From: Sulfurospirillum sp.
GTDB taxonomy: Bacteria; Campylobacterota; Campylobacteria; Campylobacterales; Sulfurospirillaceae
Direction: 5' to 3'
Assembly (NCBI GenBank): GCA_026987955.1
Contig: JALSME010000130.1
Location: forward strand, 1 to 32,298
Length of the DNA stretch: 32,298 nucleotides
Both the position numbers and the translations under genes were made by a program. Positions 19,350 to 28,693 of the stretch are shown here, in pieces (positions within the stretch are counted from its first letter, which is position 1; each line of letters starts with the position of its first letter). The notes beneath the pieces are model-generated. The model did no database searches. It had not been told where the DNA came from and was given only the letters and a program-made list of their open reading frames with translations.

Positions 19350-19856
19350 TTATTTTGTTGCTAATTTTTGTTTTAACTGAGTTATCTGCTCTTTAGTTAA
19401 GATTTTAAAAGCTTTTTCCATGTTGTCTGCTTTAATATTTAGCATCTTTTCATGTTTTTTATTCATGTGTTCTTTGAAAGATGATTTATCGAAGCTATCG
19501 CCTTTGATAAATTTCCCCATATCTCTTCCCATTTTTCCAGCATGCATAAGCTTTTTCATCTCTAGTCTCATCTCATCTTTTAAAATTGAAAGTTGAAATC
19601 TTTGTTCACTTGTTAAGTTCAGTTGAGAGAACATTTGCATGCCGCCTCCCATCATACCACCTTGCATGCCCATTCCTCTACCTTGCATACCCATGCCTTG
19701 TTGTCCACCCATCATCATACCACTTTGCATATTTCCTTTGTTTTGCATATTGCCTTGCTGACCTTGCATCATGTTTTGGTTTTGCATACCTTGTGCAACT
19801 GCACCTACTGTTAAAGCTCCTGTTAAAACTGCTGCTACTAAAATTCCCTTTTTCAT
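19350..19856 (-). CDS. Methionine-rich Spy/CpxP-like periplasmic protein
   Basis: 168 residues: signal peptide (about 1-22), a low-complexity Met/Gln/Gly region (about 23-75; repeated MQN, MMGG, GMQG units), then a helical domain with two LTxxQ-type motifs (LTSEQ near 81, LTKEQ near 155). Met-rich stretches of this kind often bind Cu(I) or Ag(I), so a periplasmic copper sponge or chaperone is likely but inferred. The gene has its own promoter with the 11-bp direct-repeat operator (19904-19935) and a terminator (19311-19344), so it is probably a single, highly induced unit. Confidence 0.75.
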   Translation of the reverse strand: MKKGILVAAVLTGALTVGAVAQGMQNQNMMQGQQGNMQNKGNMQSGMMMGGQQGMGMQGRGMGMQGGMMGGGMQMFSQLNLTSEQRFQLSILKDEMRLEMKKLMHAGKMGRDMGKFIKGDSFDKSSFKEHMNKKHEKMLNIKADNMEKAFKILTKEQITQLKQKLATK

Positions 19857-19903
19857 CTTGTTTTCCTTTTTAGTTCTTTCGAACTCTGTTTTTTGATAAT
19901 GTA

Positions 19904-19935
19904 ATTTTACGATAAGAGTGTTAGTTATGTGTTAG
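19904..19935 (-). promoter_or_regulatory. Promoter with 11-bp-period direct repeat (operator), Met-rich protein
   Basis: GTGTTAG occurs on the plus strand at 19918-19924 and 19929-19935, period 11. On the minus strand CTAACAC twice, then 7 bp after ACACT a TAAAAT -10 at 19909-19904. The repeats take the place of the -35 element, as for an activator. Nearly the same sequence occurs at 26039-26070. Confidence 0.65.
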
Positions 19936-19954
19936 AGTATATATAGACAAAAAG

Positions 19955-20026
19955 AAATAATTATTATATGCAAATAATTATTATTTAAGAATAGTTATAC
20001 TATACTTTTATAAACAATACAAAGGA
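19955..20026 (+). promoter_or_regulatory. katA control region with Fur/PerR-like box
   Basis: AAATAATTATTAT occurs twice (19955-19967 and 19972-19984), spaced 17 bp. The ATAATTAT cores resemble Fur/PerR boxes, which control katA in Campylobacter. Downstream are TATACT (20001-20006) and the ribosome binding site AAAGGA (20021-20026), 5 bases before the ATG. Confidence 0.5.
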
Positions 20027-20031
20027 ACAAC

Positions 20032-21459
20032 ATGAAAGTACTTACAACTACATCGGGAGAGCCAGTAGGAAATAACCAAGATGCACTTACAGCAGGAGAA
20101 AGAGGTCCATTGCTAATGCAAGATTACTACTTGTTAGAAAAACTAGCTCATCAAAACAGAGAGAGAATTCCTGAGAGAACAATGCACGCTAAAGGTTCTG
20201 GTGCTCATGGAACTTTGACCATTACTAATGATATGACAAAATATACAAAAGCAGATATATTTAGTGAAATTGGCAAAAAAACACCCCTGTTTCTTAGGTT
20301 CTCAACAGTAGCTGGTGAGAGGGGAGCAGCAGATGCAGAGAGAGATGTGAGGGGTTTTGCTATAAAGTTTTATACTCAAGAGGGAAATTGGGACTTAGTT
20401 GGAAACAATACTCCAATCTTCTTTGTAGCAGATCCTTATAAGTTTCCAGATTTTGCACACACTCAAAAGAGAGATCCAAGAACAAATATGAGAAATCCTG
20501 TCGCTATGTGGGATTTTTGGTCACTAACTCCTGAGAGTTTACACCAAATAACAATACTTTTTTCTGATAGAGGGTTACCTTATAGTTATAGACACATGCA
20601 TGGCTTTGGGTCTCATACCTACTCATTTATAAATGAAGAAAACAAAAGAACTTGGGTTAAGTTTCATTTTAAAACTCAACAAGGCATTAAAAATATGACC
20701 AATGAAGAGGCTTCTAAGGTTATAGCAAAAGATAGAGAGAGTTCTCAAAAAGATTTGTATGACTCAATAGAAAATAATAATTTTCCTAGATGGGATTTAA
20801 AGATTCAAGTTATGAGTGAAGATGAGGCTAAAAAGCACAGAGACAATCCATTTGATTTGACAAAAGTTTGGTCGCAAAAAGACTATCCTCTTATAGATGT
20901 CGGTGTTTTAGAACTCAATAGAAACCCAAATAACTATTTTAATGAGGTAGAACAAGCATCTTTTTCTCCATCAAATACGGTTCCAGGGATTGGTTTGTCT
21001 CCTGATAAAATGCTATTAGCAAGAGGATTTGCATATCCTGATGCTCAAAGATATAGAGTAGGAACACACTATGAAGCACTACCAATCAATAGGCCTCTAA
21101 ATGAAGTAAATACCTATCATAAAGATGGAGCAATGAATTTTGAAGATATAGATAAAAGAGCAAATCTTACATATGAGCCAAATAGTTTTGGTGGACCAAA
21201 AGAGAATTCAAGGTATATGGAACCAGCTTTTGAGCTTGAAGGAGATGCCTATAGATATGATAGAAATATCAACAATGATCACTTTTATCAAGCAAGAGAC
21301 CTATTTAATCTTATGGATAAAAATCAAAAACAGCAACTTTTTTCAAATATAGCTGAAGCAATGCAAGGAGTGCCTGAGGAGATAATCCAAAAGCAACTAT
21401 CTTTGTTTGGACAAATTTCAGATGAGTATGCAAACGGTGTTAAAGAGGTTCTGCAATAA
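20032..21459 (+). CDS. katA: Catalase, monofunctional haem type
   Basis: Breaks down hydrogen peroxide. The 475 residues match the small-subunit (clade 3) catalases. Visible features are the distal His52 ([12 protein letters not shown]), the distal Asn125 ([11 protein letters not shown]), the conserved block [19 protein letters not shown], and the proximal haem ligand Tyr335 in [14 protein letters not shown]. No signal peptide is seen, so it is cytoplasmic. The ankyrin gene begins immediately at the stop codon. The AT-rich direct repeat upstream suggests PerR/Fur control. Confidence 0.97.
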
Positions 21460-21939
21460 ATGGAAATTTCACAAGAGGAAGAACAAAGATATGCAGAACT
21501 TCAAGAGATAGCATTAGATTTTGCTAGAGAGGGAAGTAGAACAGAGCTTGAAAATATGATAAGACATGGACTGAGTGTAAATCTGTCAACCCATAAAGAT
21601 GACTCACTACTAATGTTAGCAACTTACAATGGGCATTATGAGACATCTAAAATGTTGATTTCAAATGGTTCTGATTTAGACAGAGTAAATATGAGGGGAC
21701 AAACTCCTCTTGAGGGAGTATGTTTCAAGGGCAATTTAAAAATCGTTCAACTTCTTGTTGAGAGTGGAGCTAAGATAACAGATAGTGCAATGGTTTATGC
21801 AGCCATTTTTGGCAATAAAGAGATTTTGGATTATCTGAAAAAAAATGCTCAATCAAAATCTAAAGAGAAAATTTTAGGTATAAGTATGAGTTTTATAGCT
21901 TCATTTGTGAAAAAAATAAGGTCCATAGTTAGACGTTGA
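21460..21939 (+). CDS. Ankyrin-repeat protein paired with catalase
   Basis: A 159-residue cytoplasmic protein with three to four ankyrin repeats, visible as DSLLMLATYNGHYETSKMLI, RGQTPLEGVCFKGNLKIVQL and a shorter third unit, then a basic C-terminal helix (FVKKIRSIVRR). The ATG abuts the katA stop, so the two are translationally coupled. In Campylobacter jejuni the equivalent katA neighbour (Cj1386) is reported to be needed for full haem loading of KatA; the same role is likely here by position and size. Fold is clear, function is inferred. Confidence 0.88.
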   Translation: MEISQEEEQRYAELQEIALDFAREGSRTELENMIRHGLSVNLSTHKDDSLLMLATYNGHYETSKMLISNGSDLDRVNMRGQTPLEGVCFKGNLKIVQLLVESGAKITDSAMVYAAIFGNKEILDYLKKNAQSKSKEKILGISMSFIASFVKKIRSIVRR

Positions 21940-21943
21940 TTTT

Positions 21944-21970
21944 ATATTAGGAGCTTTAAGCTCCTAATAT
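21944..21970. terminator. Bidirectional terminator between the ankyrin gene and copA
   Basis: Stem of about 13 bp (ATATTAGGAGCTT with its complement, one-base loop in the perfect palindrome) between convergent genes, with T/A-rich flanks. Confidence 0.8.
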
Positions 21971-21973
21971 ATT

Positions 21974-24244
21974 TTATAGAGAGATTTTTTTAAGTCTTAG
22001 TGAGTTTACTATGACTGAAACCGAACTAAAGCTCATAGCAGTTGCTGCTATCATTGGTGAAAGAAGTATTCCAAATACAGGAAAAAGAACACCAGCAGCG
22101 ATAGGAACCCCCAAAGCGTTATATATAAAAGCAAAAAATAGGTTCTGTTTTATGTTTTTCATAACTTCATAACTAAGATTTTTTGCCTTTAATATCCCTT
22201 TTAAATCTCCTTTTACCAAAGTTATATTGGCACTTTGCATAGCAACATCTGTACCCGTTCCCATAGCAATCCCAATGTTAGCTTGAGCTAAGGCAGGTGA
22301 GTCATTGATGCCATCTCCTGCCATAGCAACAATGAGCCCTTCAGATTGGAGCTCTTTTATTTTGTTTAGCTTGTCTTGGGGTAGGCACTCTGCTTGAAAC
22401 TCACTAAGTGTGAGCTGAGAGGCAACCGCTTTTGCTGTATTTGCATTGTCACCTGTCATCATGATGACTCTTATGCCACTTTTAACTAACTCATCTATAG
22501 CTTCATGGCTACTCTTCTTTATAGCATCAACTATAGATATATAGCCTAAAGCTTCATTATCAATCGCCACATATGAGACAGTTTTGCCAAGTTTTTGCTC
22601 TTTTATAATCTCATTTTTTAACTCATCTGGTATGGTGACTTTTTCTTGCTTCATTAAACTAAGGTTTCCTAAGATAACCTTTCTTGAAGATATATACCCT
22701 GTAACACCTTTGCCTGCAATAGCCTCAAAATCTTTTACATCTTTAAAGTTAATATTTTTCTGTTTTGCATACTTTACTACTGCATCAGCAAGTGGATGTT
22801 CACTCTGTTGGTTTAGTGAAGCGATATCTTCTAAGATAGATTCTTCTCTATCTTGTTGCATTGCAAATATTCTATCAACTGAAGGCTTACCCTCTGTTAG
22901 AGTCCCTGTTTTATCTGTTATAAGAATATCTATCTTATTCATAGTTTCTAGTGCCTCAGCATTTTTTATCAATATTCCTGATTGTGCACCTTTGCCAACT
23001 CCTACCATAACAGACATAGGTGTTGCAAGTCCTAAAGCACAAGGACAAGCTATAATGAGAACAGCAATAGCATTTACAAAGGCAAATACATATGCAGGCT
23101 CTGGTCCAAAGGTTGCCCACAAGGCGAAGGTTCCAAGAGATATGACTACTACAATAGGCACAAAATACTTAGATATTTTATCTGCTAGTTTTTGAATAGG
23201 TGCTCTTGATCGACTTGCATCATTTACCATCTGTATGATTTGAGATAGTAAAGTATCAGCTCCAACTTTTTGAGCAATCATAACAAATGATTTGGTGCCA
23301 TTGATAGTCCCAGAACTTACTTTATCGCCTGTAGATTTATCGACCGGTATGGGCTCTCCTGTTATCATCGATTCATCGATGCTACTTTGTCCCTCCACCA
23401 CTTCTCCATCAACTGGAATTTTATCACCAGGTTTTACTCTAAGCAAGTCACCTTTTTTTATGTCATGAATAGATATAACTCTCTCTTCCCCATTTTCTAC
23501 TATAGTTGCCTCTGAAGGTGCTAGTTTTAGCAGCTCTTTTAATGCTCCACTTGTTTGGGAGTGAGCTCTAGCTTCAAGGAGTTGTCCTAGTAAAACAAGT
23601 GTCAATATAACAGCAGTTGCCTCAAAATATAGATATACCGTACCAGATTCAGTTTTAAATTGATCTGGAAAAATATCTGGAAAAAGTAGAGCAAAAACAC
23701 TAAATACAAATGCAACCCCAGTTCCAAGACCTATAAGAGTAAACATGTTAAGGTTCCAAGTTCGAACAGAGTCATAAGCTCTGACAAAAAACATCCAACA
23801 TGCATAAAAGACCACAGGAAGTGTTAGAAAAAACTGAGTTATATCCCAGCCCTCTTGAGGTAATATGCTAGTGAGTGGTTTACCTGGAATCAAATCTGCC
23901 ATAGAGATTAAAAATACAGGTACAGAAAAAGCAGTTGCAATTTTCATCTTTTTAAGCAACTCTTTGTATGTTTTATCTTCCTCATTATCTTGCGGGCTCA
24001 TAGGCACTAAATCCATACCACATATGGGACAGCTTCCAGTTTCTTCTTTTATGATTTCAGGGTGCATAGGACAGGTAAATTGAGTACTTGATGGTGTTAG
24101 CTTTGGTTGTTCTATTAAGTCCATTCCACATACTGGGCAGTTTCCTGCTTCTTTGTATGTTTTATCTCCTTCACAGTTCATAGGGCAGTGGTATGAGCCA
24201 CTGCCTTTTTCATCATTATGTTTATGTGTATGCTTGTGTTGCAT
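21974..24244 (-). CDS. copA: Copper-exporting P1B-type ATPase
   Basis: A 756-residue inner-membrane pump moving Cu(I) or similar soft metals out of the cytoplasm. The N-terminus has a His-rich start (HKHTHKHN) and two zinc-ribbon-like metal-binding modules, each ending CPVCGMDL or CPICGMDL (about residues 20-43 and 58-80), in place of the usual CxxC HMA domains. Then come the transport helices, the actuator motif TGEP (295-298), CPC in the sixth helix (400-402), phosphorylated Asp444 in DKTGT, HP (SEHPLADA), and [10 protein letters not shown]. It starts 12 bases after the multicopper oxidase stop in the same operon. Confidence 0.95.
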
Positions 24245-24256
24245 GTTATATCCTTT

Positions 24257-25738
24257 TTATGTAACCAAAAATTGTCCCATCATTCCGCCGTCTTCATGTT
24301 CTAGTATGTGGCAGTGAAACATGTATGGTACATTTTTATCACTGTTGTATTTGAATGAAACCATTATATAGACTGCTCCCATAGGGTCGACTATAACAGT
24401 ATCTTTAAAGCCTTGTTCAGACTTGTTTGGTCTTCTTCCATCAATTGCAAGAATTTTAAACTGAGTATTGTGTACATGAAAAGGGTGTGCCATAGGTGAT
24501 TGGTTTACTATCTTCCAAATCTCAAATGTATCTTTTTTTGCAACAGCATCTATCCTGCTCATGTCCATAGCTTTACCATTTATGAAAAATCTATCGCCAT
24601 TTCCACCACCTCCCATCATACTCATCATCCCCATGCTAAGAGTCATACCTCTTGCTGCTACTGCATTATTCGGATTCCATACTGGATGTTCTGATAGTTT
24701 TGATGGAATAGTTCTAGTGCTTGTAGAGGCATTTTTTGATTTTATTTTCATCAGGTCAAACTCTATGTCAGAGTTCATGCTACCCATCATCATGCCCATC
24801 ATACCCATACTTCTTGTAGCTCCTTTGAAGCTTTTTAGCACGACATCTTGAGCATTGCTTAGGTCTACTACTATCTCAATTCTCTCACCAGGGGCTAGTC
24901 TAATTTGTTTTAAATTTACAGGTGCTTCAAGAAGTCCACCATCAGTTGCTATGAGTTTAAAATCTCTATCATCACTAAATCCAAGATTGTAAAACCTTGC
25001 GTTTGAGCCATTTAAAATTCTAAATCTGGTCAGTTTTTTCTTAGCCTTAAAAGTTGGAGCAATAACTCCATTGACAAGGACATAGTTGCCATGAAATCCA
25101 GCCATGCGCTCTTGCATGGAAGTTATATATCTAAAAGAGCCATCAGAGTTGAAGTTTCTATCTTGCAAAACTATAGGTATATCATCTATCCCATACTCAC
25201 TAGGCAGATTTAAGCTACTCGATTCTTCATCGTCTATTATGAACATTCCAGCTAAGCCTTTGTAGACCTGTGTTGCTGTTTGGTGAAACATATGTGAGTG
25301 ATACCACAAAAAAGAGGCTCTGTTTTGAACTTTGAACTCTGGTTTCCATGTCGTATCTGGTTTTATAACCTGATGAGGTCCACCATCCATCTTAGCAGGC
25401 AGTTCAAAACCATGCCAGTGTAGAGTTGAGTCAAATCTAAGAGAGTTTTTTACATTTATCTGTATAAATTCACCCTTTTTTGCTCTAAGTGTCGGACCAA
25501 GAAAAGGAGCATTGATACCCAGCGTTTTAGTTTTTAATCCCTTGAAAAACTCCATTTCTCCATGTTGTAAGTTAAGGTTAAAAACTCTTTTTCCATTTGT
25601 AAATTTACCCTCATAAAGAGGAGGGAGAGAAAAATCTCTCTCCTGCTCAAACACATCATATGAGTATAAGTTTGAAGCCCCTATAAGAGTTGCACCTCCT
25701 AGGGCAGCACTAGTTAGTAAAAAGTTTCTTCTTTTCAT
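24257..25738 (-). CDS. Multicopper oxidase, CueO/CopA-like, Tat-exported
   Basis: A periplasmic oxidase (493 residues) that likely oxidises Cu(I) to the less toxic Cu(II). The N-terminus MKRRNFLLTSAALGGATL is a twin-arginine-type signal. All four copper motifs are present: HWHG, WYHSHMFHQ, HPFHVHN and HCHILEHEDGGMM. Two Met-rich loops (MGMMGMMMGSM around residue 315 and SMGMMSMMGGGG around 375) match the methionine-rich Cu(I)-binding insert of CueO. It lies between the SHOCT protein and copA in a copper-detoxification operon. Confidence 0.95.
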   Translation of the reverse strand: MKRRNFLLTSAALGGATLIGASNLYSYDVFEQERDFSLPPLYEGKFTNGKRVFNLNLQHGEMEFFKGLKTKTLGINAPFLGPTLRAKKGEFIQINVKNSLRFDSTLHWHGFELPAKMDGGPHQVIKPDTTWKPEFKVQNRASFLWYHSHMFHQTATQVYKGLAGMFIIDDEESSSLNLPSEYGIDDIPIVLQDRNFNSDGSFRYITSMQERMAGFHGNYVLVNGVIAPTFKAKKKLTRFRILNGSNARFYNLGFSDDRDFKLIATDGGLLEAPVNLKQIRLAPGERIEIVVDLSNAQDVVLKSFKGATRSMGMMGMMMGSMNSDIEFDLMKIKSKNASTSTRTIPSKLSEHPVWNPNNAVAARGMTLSMGMMSMMGGGGNGDRFFINGKAMDMSRIDAVAKKDTFEIWKIVNQSPMAHPFHVHNTQFKILAIDGRRPNKSEQGFKDTVIVDPMGAVYIMVSFKYNSDKNVPYMFHCHILEHEDGGMMGQFLVT

Positions 25739-27369: not shown

Positions 27370-27405
27370 GAATTAAGGGCATCTCTAAAAACCCTTATAT
27401 CCTCA

Positions 27406-27506
27406 GAGTCAAAGAGAGAGGTAAGATTGTATAGAACTTTTTTTGAGTCATAGCCTTAGCTATGGCGATAAAAAATTCTGTGCAAGATTGCTTCTCTCTT
27501 TGGCTC
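27406..27506. repeat. Long hairpin 1 inside the element
   Basis: Arms of about 48 bases. The outer 39 bases have roughly 9 mismatches, mostly C/T or G/A changes that would still allow G-U pairing in RNA. The tip is CATAGC/GCTATG with a CTTA loop. Confidence 0.7.
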
Positions 27507-27513
27507 CCTGCGG

Positions 27514-27611
27514 GCATTATAGCAAACACACTACTGCTTCGTTAAAATCATTTGAAGCTACTAGTAGCTCCTTCATAATTTCGCCTTACATTAGCATATT
27601 TGCTATAATGC
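27514..27611. repeat. Long hairpin 2 inside the element
   Basis: The closing stem is 13 bp perfect (GCATTATAGCAAA with its complement). The middle is poorly paired, and the tip contains the perfect palindrome GCTACTAGTAGC. Confidence 0.65.
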
Positions 27612-27628
27612 TGAGGACATAAGGGTTT

Positions 27629-28693
27629 TTAGAGATGCCCTTTTAACTCTTTAAGATTAAGTTTAAAAGTAGTACCAATGCCTAATTCTGAGTTTACACT
27701 TATGGGTATGTGCATCTTTTTTGAAAGTTTTTTTACTATGTGAAGGCCGATGCCAAGTCCACGAGAGGTCTCTTTATAAAATCTATTGAAGATTTTTTTT
27801 GGATTTTTGATTCCACTTCCGGTGTCGCTGATTTCTAGTGTTTTATTTTTTAGTTTTATGGTTACACTGCCATCTTTCTTGTTATATTTACAAGCATTTG
27901 AGAGTATGTTGTCTATGATTCTTACAAATCCATCTTTATAGCAGTAGAGTATTTTTTCATCTATATCAGTCAAAAATGTTATGTGAGGGTAGAGGTCTTG
28001 CATGTAGTTTACTCTTTGCTCTACTATCTCTTTTAGTTCAAACTTTTCACTCTTTTTTATGTCATCTTCAAGGTACTCTTTGAGATTGTTTTGTAAGTTT
28101 AGTATAGTTTCAACTCCTCCTTCAATCCTCTCTATATTTCTGTTTTGGATTTTTCTCTTTAGTACACTTAGGTTAAGTCTTATGGTAGATATAGGAGTAT
28201 TAAAATCATGCAATATATCTTTTATAAACTCATTTGTAAGTTTAAGGTATCTTTTATAAGGGTAGAGAGCATAGAGCGAAAAAGCGATAGAAACAAAAAA
28301 GATAAGCACTAAGCTTTTGAGAAATTGCTCTAAGCTTTTTTTGAAAATCAGGTTTTTATCATAGTTTAAACTTTTGATTGGATAAGAGACTTTTACAAGA
28401 CTATTAGGCTTGTTTTTATTCTCAAAAAATACAAATATATCTTTTTTATCAGAGTAAAATTGGTTTGTGATTATATCTGTATCTTTTTTAACTATGCTTT
28501 TTTTAAATATACCTTGTTCATCTTTAAAACTTGCTATTTGCATCTGTGTAAAAATGGTGTCTTCTAGGTTGTGAAGGTCACTTTTATGAGTCTGATGAAC
28601 TAAAAACCATATGAGACTAGAGAGTGATATAAAAAACAGTAAAAAGCTTTTGACAAATGACTCAACCTCAACTCTTCTCAAGTATATACCCAC
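27629..28693 (-). CDS. Sensor histidine kinase (second two-component system)
   Basis: 354 residues: two membrane helices (about 13-33 and 123-144) around an ~85-residue periplasmic sensor, then H-box ILHDFNTPISTIRL (His162), N-box NILSNACKYNKKDG, G1 DTGSGI and G2 RGLGIGLHIV. There is no cytoplasmic sensory domain. The start overlaps the regulator gene by 26 bases. The last residues (KGHL) and the stop codon lie inside the right terminal repeat of the element at 27375-27642, so the element seems to have replaced the original C-terminus. The input signal is unknown. Confidence 0.92.
   Translation of the reverse strand: MGIYLRRVEVESFVKSFLLFFISLSSLIWFLVHQTHKSDLHNLEDTIFTQMQIASFKDEQGIFKKSIVKKDTDIITNQFYSDKKDIFVFFENKNKPNSLVKVSYPIKSLNYDKNLIFKKSLEQFLKSLVLIFFVSIAFSLYALYPYKRYLKLTNEFIKDILHDFNTPISTIRLNLSVLKRKIQNRNIERIEGGVETILNLQNNLKEYLEDDIKKSEKFELKEIVEQRVNYMQDLYPHITFLTDIDEKILYCYKDGFVRIIDNILSNACKYNKKDGSVTIKLKNKTLEISDTGSGIKNPKKIFNRFYKETSRGLGIGLHIVKKLSKKMHIPISVNSELGIGTTFKLNLKELKGHL

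Follow-up and report, generated by a model that had tools for sequence, protein, structure and literature searches.

Bacterial MITEs have mostly been described as simple stem-loops (PMC10969869, PMC2229807). Those mobilised by insertion sequences (ISs) are short and devoid of ORFs, carry terminal inverted repeats that match the ends of an IS, are bordered by target duplications and occur as multiple, highly base-paired intergenic copies (PMC10969869). The element reported here, found in a 32,298-nucleotide stretch of Sulfurospirillum sp. DNA (the whole of which is called the window below), shares all these traits, but differs in that a single interior is combined with ends that are unrelated and with more than one IS partner, its stems covary and its loop motifs are nearly invariant.

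The nearest structural relative named in these two reviews is the CIR element of Caulobacter, also known from Brucella, which likewise has two long inverted-repeat arms, a linker and a short conserved exposed motif. CIR structures are set there against repeats closed by pairing of their 5' and 3' ends (PMC2229807), whereas the present elements have, in addition to the arms, a 30-bp terminal stem with IS5 ends, and their motifs are internal loops; on informal reading, no GANTC motif such as the one exposed in CIR was noticed in them. As for the Correia/NEMIS elements of Neisseria, they have terminal repeats, target duplications and a location near genes in common with our elements, and an effect on neighbouring mRNAs through RNase III has been proposed for them; they are, however, described as stem-loops rather than a branched fold, and that source mentions no set of loops conserved between families whose ends differ (PMC2229807).

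IS5-family elements of two types, represented by L275 and L251, have the same terminal 16-21 bp as the MITEs, and the L275 type also has the same duplication length; they possess a transposase and lack the arms, while the MITE shows the reverse. REP elements are conserved mismatched hairpins in intergenic DNA, and in this they resemble the present elements. REPs measure 20-40 bp, and a GTAG or CGTC tag is found on most of them (PMC3733652); compared with the REP/RAYT (TnpA-REP) system, the present elements are about 265 bp long, with DDE-type ends and duplications, and thus depart from REPs in size, ends and duplications. No description of this repeat class in Campylobacterota was found in the searched open literature, in which subscription journals are scarcely covered.

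Boundaries, fold and setting of the window copy

Alignment to other copies and to the partner IS gave 27377-27640 as the best boundaries of the MITE, i.e. 264 bp with GGGC...GCCC ends. The sequence-only reading had delimited a 268-bp element; the element itself stands, and its ends were moved inwards, and the outer AA/TT are part of the AT-rich target. The features of this copy are given below, (+) denoting for the element the strand that carries the conserved loop motifs in 5'-3' direction.

27373..27376, no strand: left flank TTAA, presumed target-site copy (from the sequence and the 4-bp duplication at family level)
27377..27640, + strand: MITE, 264 bp, GGGC...GCCC (from repeats, copies, duplications and comparison of IS ends)
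27377..27405, + strand: left terminal inverted repeat, 5' strand of stem P1, its outer 16-18 bp corresponding to IS5-family ends
27406..27506, + strand: arm 1, hairpin of about 101 nt, type 1 (from hairpin search and covariation)
27423..27428, + strand: conserved AAGATT, lower internal loop of arm 1, 5' side (central GA)
27444..27446, + strand: TGA, apical internal loop of arm 1, 5' side
27467..27469, + strand: GAT, apical internal loop of arm 1, 3' side
27484..27489, + strand: conserved AAGATT, followed by GC, lower internal loop of arm 1, 3' side; tandem GA/GA mismatch
27507..27513, + strand: linker mini-hairpin CCC-N-GGG, present in 45/46 non-redundant elements
27514..27611, + strand: arm 2, hairpin of about 98 nt, type 2
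27537..27543, + strand: CTTCGTT, conserved internal loop of arm 2, 5' side
27583..27586, + strand: GCCT, conserved internal loop of arm 2, 3' side
27612..27640, + strand: right terminal inverted repeat, 3' strand of stem P1
27629..28693, - strand: sensor histidine kinase gene, its last codons and stop within the right terminal repeat (insertion of the element at the 3' end)

The terminal arms (27375-27406 and 27611-27642) show complementarity at all but one of their positions (31/32), and the two internal hairpins are paired at 78% (27406-27442/27470-27506) and 83% (27514-27536/27589-27611), respectively. Folded as RNA, the segment reaches -130.4 kcal/mol vs. -61.0 +/- 4.6 for its shuffles (z = -15.3), a stability far above chance expectation. 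Both the terminal repeats and the two long hairpins noted at the outset were thus confirmed by sequence comparison and by this fold. Concerning the three-way junction proposed at the same time, its two hairpin branches hold, but the linker CCC-TGC-GGG (27507-27513) is able to form a small hairpin, so that the junction is better called four-way. No ORF of at least 90 aa and no transposase fragment were found inside the element, in agreement with the initial reading.

The window copy sits between convergent genes, 7 bp past an ATPase gene. On its other side, positions 27629-27640 provide the final codons (GHL) and the stop of the histidine kinase gene; since these come from the right terminal repeat, the C terminus of the kinase was altered by the insertion. 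An exact 4-bp duplication is absent at this copy, with TTAA on the left (27373-27376) and TTTT on the right (27641-27644). Its orthologous site was not found, the kinase relatives being only 35-40% identical and unusable for an empty-site test. Further upstream in the window (19350-25738) lies a series of genes which, as read from their translations, are metal/oxidative-stress-like and include a multicopper oxidase, a heavy-metal P-type ATPase, a catalase-like protein and a Met-rich protein.

Copies, target duplications and partner transposases

The host genome (G000), a fragmented draft, holds six full copies, the window copy included, which are 91-95% identical. It also holds five truncated copies, several of them at contig ends, one copy of ~160 bp (L007) and about a dozen solo units, 17-18 bp long and bordered by TTAA-like sequence. 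In another genome of the genus (G002), the same ends are found on 51-bp and 35-bp forms and on full elements with quite different arms. Families were delimited by inspecting their ends. Among 18 elements of family A, 4-bp flanking direct repeats were observed in nine, vs. 1.5 expected, and flanking repeats of exactly 3 or 5 bp in none. For a family-A-type element of G021, the counterpart site in G012 is empty, at TTGA. The lack of a gene, the multiple copies, the target duplications and the empty site for a closely related element give good support to the identification of the 264-bp repeat as a MITE. Plasmid and phage records gave no match.

Several derived forms were also observed. Solo units (L034-L058 and L087-L115) are 17-18-bp ends flanked by TTAA-like sequence, and there are end-to-end mini forms of 35, 48 and 51 bp (L098, L102, L118 and L125). 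Both are as expected from near-precise palindrome loss, and the short forms are probably products of slippage between the CCCTT within one end and the CCCTT at the other. One chimera (L010, contig C105 of the host genome, about 1300-1605) combines the left end, arm 2 and linker of family B with the arm-1 core and right end of family A, its halves being joined within arm 1, where the junction bears a small additional hairpin; recombination between MITE families has left a direct trace here. Two pairs of orthologous intergenic regions are occupied by different element families (L012 in G000 and L195 in G025; L198 in G027 and L125 in G002), which suggests common insertion-prone sites.

Regarding the source of mobility, a decayed IS in G010 (L241) has GGGCACCTCTAAAAA ends and a TTAT duplication, and its proteins match NF033581, the IS5-family model of NCBIfam, as well as Pfam DUF772/DDE_Tnp_1. 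A search with the L241-type transposase in 299 genomes of the order yielded relatives in nine genomes, and an open transposase frame between matching ends was found in four (G297, G044, G043 and G098). The intact ISs are L274, L275, L277 and L279. At the IS level, the 4-bp duplications are TTAT (L241), ATAT (L274), TTAA (L275) and TAAA (L279). The MITE and the L275-type IS have only their outer 16-18 bp in common, the partner ISs having no two-arm interior and the MITE no transposase remnant; the MITE is therefore not an internal deletion of the IS. Neither DDE_Tnp_1 nor DDE_3 transposases were detected in the fragmented draft of the host or in G002, and the former gave no match to PF01609, PF13358 or the L241 type. 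An IS630/mariner partner was rejected, PF13358 being present in just 3 of the 44 genomes of the family and absent from the host. As a whole, the window MITE would be mobilised in trans by an IS5-family transposase, as judged from shared ends and duplications. The MITE reading suggested at the start, with its proposed search for further copies, is well supported by copies in the host and more in its relatives, by duplications, by an empty site for a closely related element and by an IS5-family partner, found elsewhere in the order, whose ends are the same.

A second family, with AGACTT-type ends (AGACTTCTTGCATAACC), shows 3-bp ANT duplications, exact in 10 of 18 cases vs. 5.4 expected, and has 18-21 exact terminal bases in common with another IS5-type element, located in G015. 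Since two different IS5-type elements match MITEs with the same interior, at least two different transposases have been used, and the interior has outlived transposase changes. In families D and H, 2-bp TA duplications are suggestive only, symmetric ends being indistinguishable from duplications.

Architecture, covariation and distribution

One common architecture is found in at least eight MITE families whose ends are unrelated, the elements with other ends coming from lower-scoring matches in the same genomes. Besides those already cited, ends of further families include CTGACCTTACGCACTA, GCCATCCAAGAACAAAC, AGTGCCTGACCACAATAA, TTACTCCACCAACTAAA, AGACTTATTGCGATATAAG, AACTAACCAAATACCCA and AAGTACCTAACCATAAAG, among others. 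The plan is, in order, terminal stem P1 (24-34 bp), arm 1 (95-102 nt), the CCC-N-GGG mini-hairpin (7-11 nt) and arm 2 (92-100 nt), for a total of 250-271 nt, typically ~265-270. Families C and H have type 2 in both arms. The superfamily is defined by its conserved fold and not by its sequence, nearly all of which, ends included, has been replaced.

Some variants of the plan were also seen. L284 (G281, 1470-1761) is a 292-bp element with an extra small hairpin in arm 2, the flanking fold being kept. In genus g3, single-hairpin elements of ~165 bp with AGACTT-type ends (L068, L070, L077, L144, L228, L230 and L236) retain only the arm-1 apex motif, and some of them lie at orthologous sites in two species (L228/L236 and L144/L222).

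Covariation across copies, proposed at the start as a check, turned out to be strong. In arm 1, 28 of 43 pairs changed on both sides among 17 sequences, and no shuffle reached the observed values. With 130 distinct rows, a change on both sides is seen at least once in 41 of 42 pairs, and 92% of the cells pair, although the 17-sequence count is the cleaner of the two, the 130-row alignment being model-fitted and including some reverse-strand matches. The covariation score of the latter is 0.639 vs. 0.211 when shuffled and at most 0.150 when slid, the slid controls bringing the paired cells down to 41-51%.

Concerning the loops, AGAT and AGATTGC face each other in the lower loop of arm 1, and in 23 elements that are <80% identical each position of this loop is conserved at 87-100%, while outer stem positions of arm 1 are weakly conserved in the same elements. 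Arm 2 has CTTCGTT and GCCT as nearly invariant motifs (alignment A2); of 46 non-redundant elements, 38 contain this motif pair with a fixed spacing, vs. 25 of 920 shuffles. The CCC-N-GGG linker is present in 45 of these 46.

The arm-1 model has matches in 31 of the 44 genomes of the family, with up to 43 in one genome, and in 95 of the 399 genomes of the order (Campylobacterales), representing 27 of 87 genera, these counts being approximate as the lower-scoring matches include some reverse-strand and single-hairpin elements. Of 23 loci read from other families of the order, about 20 contain full or nearly full two-arm elements. In a phylum-wide draw, every arm-1 match fell within the same order, and none was obtained on 124 kb of control DNA that included the partner IS.

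Competing explanations and the level at which the fold acts

The best explanation, to which we give a probability of about 0.5, is that of a trans-mobilised MITE belonging to a superfamily defined by its fold, with the fold acting as DNA. An IS5-family DDE transposase would recognise the GGGYAYCTCTAAAAACC ends, move the MITE in trans and generate the 4-bp AT-rich duplications. Once single-stranded or extruded, the element would pair its two ends, and the arms would display short, strand-specific mismatched motifs to a host or mobile-element protein; this recognition may aid excision, capture by any transposase present, or survival of the palindrome. A bolder version can be put forward only tentatively: the heritable unit of the superfamily may be the folded DNA shape itself, a cloverleaf read by a putative protein when single-stranded or extruded, which would swap transposase ends and parasitise successive IS5-type elements across the order. 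Since AAGATT is repeated directly on one strand, the loops might alternatively be protein sites in duplex DNA.

Alternatively, the elements may be ordinary MITEs, with selected ends and a passive interior whose stems are kept by quasipalindrome repair and whose loops are shared via descent and recombination. This agrees with the chimera L010, in which a family-B left half and a family-A right half meet through the common arm-1 core, with the deletion series of 264, ~160-180, 51, 48, 35 and 18 bp, which suggests palindrome slippage, and with P1 and arm 2 showing no RNA-type wobble excess. Template-switch palindrome repair can explain the complementarity of the stems but not the conserved loops, which are far better conserved than the surrounding stems across families and genera; unselected loops should drift or be repaired into pairs, and the total and arm lengths are, moreover, nearly constant. 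We therefore regard a passive interior as unlikely, though it is the foremost competitor.

Somewhat less probable again is a structured RNA, i.e. a transcribed cloverleaf with tandem G.A loops serving as a small RNA or as a processing or regulatory site in neighbouring transcripts. The fold is indeed very stable, its covariation is strong and tandem GA internal loops are of a kind common in RNA. G.T vs. A.C pairs were counted on the motif strand of 45 non-redundant elements: 25 vs. 44 in the terminal stem P1, 5 vs. 6 in the outer stem of arm 2, and 11 vs. 3 (p = 0.06) in the outer stem of arm 1, where the lean would fit RNA. The G-U pairing that the sequence-only reading had taken as a hint of RNA-level pairing was therefore not upheld in two of the three stems. 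The elements are intergenic in 91 of 93 cases and, with respect to co-oriented neighbour genes, 18 have the same orientation and 19 the opposite one, i.e. no preference. The random gene orientation and the missing wobble excess in two of three stems argue against a cis-acting mRNA element and are compatible with a DNA role or a separate transcript; a DNA-level role is favoured, with modest confidence.

No Rfam family came near its cut-off: only weak plant and animal microRNA matches were obtained, and these hairpins were rejected as chance, their scores being far under the cut-offs. The different ends turned out to have no promoter in common, P1 being TATA-enriched in its inner part but at variable positions and without TATAAT; a promoter-like site in arm 2, from a single-site scan, is not a general feature. 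Strands in complete genomes, viewed informally and without placing the origins, showed no clear replication-strand bias.

A decayed or internally deleted IS5-family element, which the element's IS5-type ends might evoke, is very improbable and was rejected along with the earlier decayed-IS alternative, since the match is limited to the outer 16-21 bp, the interior has no similarity to the IS and no transposase remnant, and the two-arm interior is missing from the IS.

The usual description of MITEs is turned around in these elements: a MITE is commonly defined through ends in common with one transposase, its interior being treated as filler, whereas here the interior fold is constant and the ends change, across many genera. 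This makes testable the existence of a selected internal structure in bacterial MITEs, of a protein that would read it and of transposase switching, and the covariance model offers a way to annotate this repeat class.
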